Shown piece after piece: positions 40,138 to 41,444 of a stretch of DNA of 64,000 nt. The notes beneath the pieces were generated by a model. It was not told where the DNA came from. It was given only the letters and a program-made list of their open reading frames with translations, and searched no databases. The position numbers and the translations under genes are program-made. Each line of letters opens with the position of its first letter. Positions within the stretch are counted from its first letter, which is position 1. This stretch comes from Nitrospira sp. (GTDB lineage: Bacteria; Nitrospirota; Nitrospiria; Nitrospirales; Nitrospiraceae), in contig JACOEM010000009.1 in the NCBI GenBank assembly GCA_024998565.1, positions 1 to 64,000 of the forward strand, read 5' to 3'.

Positions 40138-40614
40138 CTACTGCATCGAGGCCATCGGCTTCTCGACGATGTCGCTCTTCATCGGGCCCAATGCGCCCAA
40201 CAGCTCGTTCTTTTCCCGTTCAGGCACTTTGAATTTGTTCAACGTGGCGACGAGGTCTCCGACCAGCGCATCGAAGTCACTGCTGCTGACGCCCATGCCG
40301 GCATGGGTGCTCTTCATGTCCCGACCGGTGTAAGTGCAGGGCCCGCCTGAGGCCTGACAGATTTGATCGACCAGCATCGATTTCAGGCGCGGGATGTTGG
40401 CGTTGGCAAACTTCCCATTGATGCGATTGTCCGCTGCCACGCGGCCGACGAAGTCATCCACCACTGCGGTGATGGCGGTCTTTCCGCCCAGCCGGTCATA
40501 GAGAGATTTCTCCATCGTTGCCGGGCCGGCGGGGGCCGAGCCCAGGCTGTTACAGGCCGAGACGGTCAGCGCGAGACCGAGGACCATGGCGAATGATGCA
40601 ATGCGGTGAGTCAT
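40138..40614 (-). CDS. Group 1 truncated haemoglobin, predicted lipoprotein
   Basis: 158 residues: lipoprotein signal with lipobox VSAC (Cys21), then a trHbN-like domain (about 35-150) starting LYDRLGGKTAITAVVDDFVGRV. The proximal-His region is MKSTHAGMGVSSSDFDALVGDL, with the haem His at about residue 104. Such proteins bind O2 or NO. Membrane anchoring outside the cytosol is unusual for the family and points to an NO or redox role in the periplasm. GGAGGAAG before the ATG. Confidence 0.87.
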   Translation of the reverse strand: MTHRIASFAMVLGLALTVSACNSLGSAPAGPATMEKSLYDRLGGKTAITAVVDDFVGRVAADNRINGKFANANIPRLKSMLVDQICQASGGPCTYTGRDMKSTHAGMGVSSSDFDALVGDLVATLNKFKVPEREKNELLGALGPMKSDIVEKPMASMQ

Positions 40615-40806
40615 GATGCTTCCTCCTGGTTAAGGGTCTGTGTGGCGGGCCGGGATCGTTTCGACATCAACCGGTCCTCTGTCTGTGAATACGAGGGCAA
40701 TGTGAGGTTGGATCTACGGCCGGCGAAAAAAAAGCGTCGTTGCACGGCGCCAACCCCGATGCTAGAGTTCCGGCACAATCCGGCTGAGACAAACATCCAA
40801 TGGAGC

Positions 40807-40838
40807 GGGTGTCCTCGTAGGACCTTACGAGGACGCCC
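40807..40838 (+). promoter_or_regulatory. 13-bp hairpin abutting the ECF sigma start codon
   Basis: GGGTGTCCTCGTA (40807-40819) pairs with TACGAGGACGCCC (40826-40838) with one G-U pair and a 6-base loop GGACCT. The ATG is at 40839. The ribosome binding site (GAGGA, 40829-40833) is fully inside the stem. It could control translation, or, as DNA, be an operator (TCGTA-N6-TACGA). Confidence 0.65.
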
Positions 40839-41444
40839 ATGTGTCATACCCAAACTGTGGCCAACGCACCTTCACTAGACGAGCAGGAATGGTCGGGGTT
40901 CCTCGCGCGCATTGCCGCGGGAGATCAATCTGCCCTGGCGGAGCTTTATGATGCGAGCAGTGCCAAAGTATTTGGGTTGGCGATGAAGATCCTCGGTGAT
41001 CGGGACGCCGCGGAAGAGATCACGGTGGATGTCTACACCCAGGTGTGGCGAAAGATTGCGAGTTACGATGCGCAGCGGGGTACGCCGGGAAGTTGGCTCA
41101 TGACGATGACGAAGAATCGGGCCATCGACGGCTTCCGCAGCAGGTATTTGGAGCGGGGGCGGCAAGTCCCTCTCGATCAAGCGGCGGAGTTGCCGGGTGA
41201 TGCGGCGACTCCTGAACAATACAGTGCCGACCTGGAACGGCAGCGGCTGGTGCAGGAGGCCATGGCGAGTCTCTCCGCCGAGCAGCGCCAGGCGATTGCG
41301 TTGGCGTATTATTGGGGCTTGAGTCAGAGTGAAATCGCCGATCGGTTGAGGCTGCCGTTGGGGACCGTGAAGACGCGAATGAGACTGGGGATGATCCGAT
41401 TGCGAGAAGTGTTGGCTCCGCACGGGGAAGGGTTGCGTTCATGA
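40839..41444 (+). CDS. ECF (RpoE-like) sigma factor
   Basis: 201 residues with sigma region 2 (LAELYDASSAKVFGLAMKILGDRDAAEEITVDVYTQVW, about 28-75) and region 4 (LSAEQRQAIALAYYWGLSQSEIADRLRLPLGTVKTRMR, about 145-185). The following gene encodes its anti-sigma factor and overlaps the stop (ATGA). Pairing with a cupin anti-sigma matches the RpoE-ChrR type (ECF11 group), which answers singlet oxygen or peroxides. Confidence 0.93.
   Translation: MCHTQTVANAPSLDEQEWSGFLARIAAGDQSALAELYDASSAKVFGLAMKILGDRDAAEEITVDVYTQVWRKIASYDAQRGTPGSWLMTMTKNRAIDGFRSRYLERGRQVPLDQAAELPGDAATPEQYSADLERQRLVQEAMASLSAEQRQAIALAYYWGLSQSEIADRLRLPLGTVKTRMRLGMIRLREVLAPHGEGLRS

Follow-up and report, generated by a model that had tools for sequence, protein, structure and literature searches.

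The ECF sigma gene considered here lies in a 64,000-nucleotide stretch of Nitrospira sp. DNA (the window; the genome measures 4.13 Mb in 19 contigs), and its Shine-Dalgarno (SD) sequence is hidden in a hairpin (40807-40838, + strand) that adjoins its ATG (40839). We think it likely that this hairpin is part of a two-promoter translational switch on an autoregulated sigma gene. Computation on this genome and its relatives establishes the hairpin, its conservation, the partial covariation of its arms, and the conserved promoter-like elements with their geometry. The scheme that we infer, from promoter use and the start of the inner transcript through autoregulation and anti-sigma release to an effect on protein yield, would run as follows. 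An upstream, sigma-70-like promoter (P1) would make a longer mRNA, with a leader of about 60-95 nt in which the SD is folded into the hairpin, and this basal message would be poorly translated. The 5' arm of the hairpin would be encoded in the spacer of an inner promoter (P2) and, in this genus, also in its -10, P2 being the putative promoter of the sigma factor itself. Once the cupin anti-sigma factor releases sigma, P2 transcription would begin within the 3' arm or immediately before it, and the short mRNA, having no 5' arm, would expose its SD and be well translated. Positive feedback would then operate at both levels, transcription and translation, with basal output remaining low.

The hairpin and the sigma operon

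The features of the region are the following, the hairpin arms and loop being read from the sequence.

40726-40733, + strand: A-tract just 5' of P1
40740-40768, + strand: P1, sigma-70-like candidate promoter
40794-40798, + strand: candidate P2 -35 element, CATCC (AATCC in most relatives)
40799-40813, + strand: P2 spacer, 15 nt
40807-40819, + strand: hairpin 5' arm, GGGTGTCCTCGTA
40814-40819, + strand: candidate P2 -10 element, CTCGTA, which here doubles as the inner 5' arm
40820-40825, + strand: hairpin loop, GGACCT, 6 nt
40826-40838, + strand: hairpin 3' arm, TACGAGGACGCCC
40827 (+/-2), + strand: predicted P2 start, placed by its distance from the -10
40829-40833, + strand: Shine-Dalgarno GAGGA, 5 nt 5' of the ATG, within the hairpin 3' arm
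40839-41444, + strand: ECF sigma factor, 201 aa
41441-42025, + strand: soluble anti-sigma factor, 194 aa, RskA_N plus ChrR-type cupin

A first-pass annotation, made from the letters of this DNA, had described a 13-bp stem with a 6-base loop that hides GAGGA, and the arms, loop and GAGGA are indeed all found at 40807-40838, the stem having 13 pairs, one of them T·G. It had also placed the end of the stem one base before the ATG, and this needs correction: the 3' arm runs to 40838 and directly abuts the start codon. Stems of this kind (at least 13 pairs, at most one wobble, loop of 3-12) occur at two places on the + strand and two on the - strand (three registers) of the 64 kb window, and none appeared in five first-order Markov random sequences. 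The RNA of 40760-40880 folds at -41.3 kcal/mol (z -2.9; 2 of 200 shuffles equally good), and the sigma reading frame shows the strongest pairing between positions -40 to -20 and -19 to -1 among the 52 frames tested (z -4.6). An upstream reading frame in the long leader, ATGGAGCGGGTGTCCTCGTAG, was dropped as a candidate, being absent from relatives (read by eye).

The sigma protein matches Sigma70_r2 (51.7 bits, cut-off 24) and Sigma70_r4_2 (46.8 bits, cut-off 25.7), and the region-3 model is not among its matches; it is an ECF sigma factor in the sense of having sigma-2 and sigma-4 with no sigma-3. Its best NCBIfam model, SigK (NF007228), scores 179 bits, below the cut-off of 226. The start of the anti-sigma gene overlaps the sigma stop as ATGA. 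Its product is above cut-off for both Cupin_7 and RskA_N and, judged by eye, has no membrane span; on the ChrR anti-sigma model TIGR02451 it scores 41.7 bits, below the cut-off of 124.5, and the zinc motif of ChrR anti-sigma factors, HxxxCxxC, was not found in its translation. On the - strand, at 40138-40614, a divergent truncated-globin-like gene (Bac_globin) with a lipoprotein-like N-terminus has its upstream region in common with the sigma operon.

Two candidate promoters and their conservation

The candidate P1 of the window consists of TTGCAC (40740-40745), 17 nt, and an extended -10, TGC-TAGAGT (40760-40768), with a start predicted at about 40775. The A-tract just 5' of it, which we take to be UP-element-like, belongs to an A run seen in 21 genus loci, where A17-A19 are invariant and A16 and A20 nearly so. 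P1 is weak against the sigma-70 consensus in this window, and a consensus scan at a threshold of 9/12 gave no site there. Across the relatives described below, an extended -10 of the form TGN(T/C)ANNNT stands within 80 nt 5' of the P2 motif in 61 of 66 loci, with TTG 17 nt 5' of it in 47 of the 66, and from this pattern P1 would be used as a promoter.

The P2 elements have the form of a pentamer and a CGTA about one and a half turns apart, presumably that of an ECF promoter. The 3' part of the spacer, GGGTGTC, forms the outer portion of the 5' arm (an anti-SD), and the -10, CTCGTA, is invariant across the 21 genus loci. Since the motif stands directly before the sigma gene, it suggests autoregulation. 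Transcription from P2 is predicted to begin about 7-8 nt 3' of the -10, in or just before the hairpin 3' arm, with a leader of 12 nt and no 5' arm; because the 5' arm holds the P2 -10 and spacer, and this start would lie in the 3' arm, the stem should act only on the P1 transcript.

The exact P2 string has five matches in its own genome; all four outside the sigma gene fall within large reading frames, and none of these looks promoter-like. In 29 genus and 8 other family genomes the matches besides sigma genes are mostly intragenic or unrelated sites, 14 of the genus matches having been read in context. At two loci (L114 and L115) CATCT or AATCC, N15 and CTCGTA stand directly 5' of the start of a response-regulator-like gene, a possible regulon member.

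Protein searches, first of 29 genus genomes and next of 175 from the family (E up to 1e-50), gave 72 places in 70 genomes, or 71 loci once L024, which starts at a contig edge, is left out. The motif NATCY-N14/15-YYCGTA lies just 5' of the sigma gene in 66 of these 71 orthologous Nitrospira-family loci, with a spacer of 14 or 15 nt in all 66; these loci are related by descent, and their counts are not counts of independent events. Among the five loci lacking the motif, one is N-masked (L063) and one is cut by a contig end (L079). A third, L019 in genome G011, has neither P1, P2 nor hairpin, its upstream region being unrelated to that of other genus members, which may reflect a rearrangement or an assembly join. 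The last two (L052 and L062, in genomes G061 and G060) are second sigma copies in which GTTAC occupies the -35 position (by eye) and a hairpin over the start still folds; GTTAC in place of AATCC possibly points to a sigma factor with changed promoter specificity. In one further locus, L070 (G077), the sigma frame runs for 18 codons from its expected start and then ends in a TAG, either decay or a sequence error.

A helix joins the strand of the spacer and -10 to the SD segment of the leader in all 66 motif loci. Among the loci of the core genus set, the -10 serves as the inner 5' arm (its CTCGT pairs with the ACGAG of the SD) and the spacer supplies the outer one; the outer arms read GGGTG/CACCC, GGGCA/TGCTC or GGGTA/TGCCC. 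The layout is another in the remaining genera, where the 5' arm as a whole falls mostly within the spacer and the loop carries the -10, as in TCTTCCCTAT with ATGGGGAAGA; TCTTCCC/GGGGAAGA is another arm type found outside the core genus set. The only letters kept across genera are those of the -10, the -35 and the SD.

Further out, ATCY-N14..18-CGTA is found upstream in 20 of 28 remoter homologues drawn from 80 loci, its reverse complement in 3 and the reversed string in none. This evidence is not clean, some acidobacterial matches falling within possible in-frame N-terminal extensions (by eye). Eight remoter homologues (L177, L179, L184, L186, L194, L195, L196 and L198) have ATG or GTG in frame at exactly 9 nt downstream of CGTA; their mRNAs could be leaderless, or their proteins could extend N-terminally across the motif. 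Pairing of the spacer with downstream sequence beyond that of shuffles is absent in 18 outgroup loci that have the motif (z -1.21 to 2.19, mean about 0.2). The promoter-like motif thus appears to be spread more widely than the hairpin, and because the outgroup motif loci have no spacer pairing, the hairpin looks like an addition made in the Nitrospira family. One locus listed under another family (L240, G278) has the motif, with a spacer rich in C and a leader rich in G, and a helix folds over its SD stretch.

The genome also holds a paralogous ECF gene (L235, G000:C3, about 145.7-146.0 kb), 48% identical, in which a CATCC...CGTA motif stands 3 nt 5' of an extended sigma-70 -10, with no hairpin layout. 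In L025-L031 and L241-L245, as in this paralogue, NATCY...CGTA ends some 3 nt short of an extended sigma-70 -10, for example TGTTATAGT; such loci may have two overlapping promoters that share one leader.

Pairing of the arms and access to the ribosome site

Arms of the same locus pair better than arms exchanged between loci. With 16 representatives of less than 75% identity the mean energies are -15.7 for cognate and -12.3 kcal/mol for swapped arms, and none of 20000 permutations did as well with 55, 30 or 16 representatives (4130 of 20000 with 4). Outside the core genus set 2 to 131 of 20000 permutations were as good; inside it the figures were 28, 39, 436 and 2682 of 20000 with 18, 17, 12 and 6 representatives. 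The genus alignment has 18 distinct rows; of its 180 cells 99.4% are paired, and 8 cells carry double changes (0 of 500 shuffles). In the alignment of other genera (20 distinct rows from 22 loci with a spacer of 15 and a leader of 21, picked for gap-free alignment) 86.5% are paired and 11 cells carry double changes (18 of 500 shuffles). Counted by themselves, pairs with both partners changed are no more numerous than in shuffles (340 of 500 in the genus set, 324 of 500 in the other). Among 32 disjoint pairs of closest relatives, hybrids were worse in 10, equal in 14 and better in 8 (p 0.098), so that recent arm changes show no covariation. Because the double-change counts and the nearest-pair test are both null, the case for selection on pairing comes more from contrasts among groups than from recent compensatory changes. 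Our reading is that the arms partly covary, their sequences differing between genera while the pairing stays.

These results bear on the possibility that the helix is a by-product, with no regulatory role, of a pyrimidine-preferring (or anti-SD-like) spacer meeting a purine-rich leader. Swapped arms outside the core genus set still pair at about -13.5 kcal/mol, and the null result for nearest pairs fits as well. When the spacer alone is shuffled, the mean z is -2.05 over the 66 loci, with 57 below -1 and 38 at p<0.05, and the 28 that fail to beat shuffled spacers at that level are in keeping with a by-product. Such an origin would not, however, explain the advantage of cognate over swapped arms in the group tests, nor the genus outer arms GGGTG/CACCC or GGGCA/TGCTC, which pair though they are not pyrimidine-rich, nor the outgroups, where the same motif occurs in 18 loci with a mean z of only about 0.2. 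We consider a by-product unlikely.

The two predicted transcripts differ in the accessibility of the ribosome site. As computed for the 66 loci, opening positions -13 to +3 costs on average 13.42 kcal/mol in the long leader (62-94 nt) and 5.51 in the short one (10-28 nt), the long start having been set 25 nt 5' of the motif in the five loci with no recognised P1. The difference exceeds 3 kcal/mol in 60 of the 66 loci and is reversed in three (L021, L054 and L057), where the short leader opens no more easily. Long leaders with shuffled spacers cost 10.88 kcal/mol, and for the locus in the window the values are 18.9 (long) and 6.8 (short). In computed folding, then, a helix hides the SD in the longer transcript, as in a switch of the T4 gene e type.

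The first-pass annotation had read the stem as a riboregulator, in which heat, a ligand or a protein opens the stem and sets sigma synthesis independently of promoter choice. The SD-burying stem of the sigma gene has held up, being conserved, partly covarying and family-wide, and a long transcript could in principle be regulated in this way too. It is the opening by temperature, ligand or protein that we think improbable, slightly more so than a by-product. Among relatives the arm duplexes vary in energy between -9.3 and -25.3 kcal/mol, which is not a tuned melting point; the SD hairpin is present, but so wide a variation in stability speaks against an RNA thermometer. Rfam covariance models gave no match in 40500-41100 at E up to 1, neither a ligand pocket nor a conserved loop was seen beyond the promoter and SD elements, and the constant position of the 5' arm upstream of the predicted P2 start would be left unexplained. 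Transcription starting inside the stem, which the annotation had counted against its own reading, is predicted here for one (P2) of the two promoters.

Its alternative, a DNA dyad overlapping P2 that binds a repressor of the sigma gene, could draw on the nearly perfect dyad of the window, which covers the -10; we give it very little credence, because outside the core genus set the arms differ in sequence while pairing is kept and the -10 lies in the loop, only the letters of the -10, -35 and SD are conserved, and G-U-type pairs are frequent in both alignments, which fits RNA and not an operator. That P2 alone is active, the upstream element being no promoter and the hairpin insulating the sigma gene from read-through transcripts, is equally hard to credit: P1 is weak in the window, but the frequency of its extended -10 (61/66) and of the TTG at 17 nt (47/66) argues otherwise, and the logic would be unchanged, read-through being merely another source of long RNA.

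Comparison with known systems

Control by start site, as in T4 gene e, seems to us the most economical reading of this arrangement. RNA thermometers and riboswitch-like leaders also tie up the SD in base pairs directly 5' of the start codon; unlike in these, the release proposed here would come from the choice of start site and not from melting or ligand binding. An autoregulated sigma factor must avoid firing on basal leakage, and a promoter spacer serving as 5' arm would give low basal and high induced synthesis from one short piece of DNA with no further regulator.

SigK-RskA and other autoregulated ECF/anti-sigma operons, with cupin ChrR-like or RskA-type anti-sigma factors, have the same pairing of sigma and anti-sigma genes and the same presumed autoregulation, and an SD hairpin in the promoter spacer is not mentioned in the passages of PMC7509140 that deal with them. 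The Nitrospira anti-sigma factor differs from theirs in joining an RskA_N-like domain to a ChrR cupin with no membrane span. In open-licence PMC papers we found no report of a promoter-in-hairpin switch on a cellular sigma gene, and its proposed use on such a gene, whose product is the presumed factor of the inner promoter, is new as far as our searches show.

If the proposed switch is real, it would extend a phage trick to a chromosomal stress regulator and offer ready parts for low-leak synthetic circuits, and transcript abundance alone would not suffice to read sigma regulation in Nitrospira nitrite oxidizers. On balance we also favour, a little more cautiously, the wider view that about 110 bp hold a two-layer positive feedback: with its promoter set into the SD-hiding hairpin, sigma would activate its own transcription and, by the choice of start site, its translation too. 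Such a design, present at 66 of the 71 family loci with arms rewritten between genera, would amount to a low-leak circuit of natural origin and, among bacteria, to a conserved equivalent of the T4 lysozyme switch.

For T4 genes e and I-TevI such a mechanism is established, which counts in favour of the proposed switch. The relevant passages of PMC3014915 describe structures that sequester the ribosome-binding site in T4 genes e, soc, 49 and I-TevI; two of these genes, e and I-TevI, also have a late promoter located at the 5' strand. In gene e the site is hidden in long early transcripts, synthesis falls about 100-fold, and the late promoters start past the 5' strand. As described there for e and I-TevI, so in our proposal for Nitrospira a long transcript would hide the SD and a downstream promoter for another sigma factor would give an unstructured, well-translated mRNA. 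The Nitrospira case differs in being a chromosomal stress-type sigma operon and not a set of phage late genes, in having as its product the presumed sigma factor of the inner promoter, which would close a feedback loop, and in the double duty of the spacer and -10 as the 5' arm of the hairpin.
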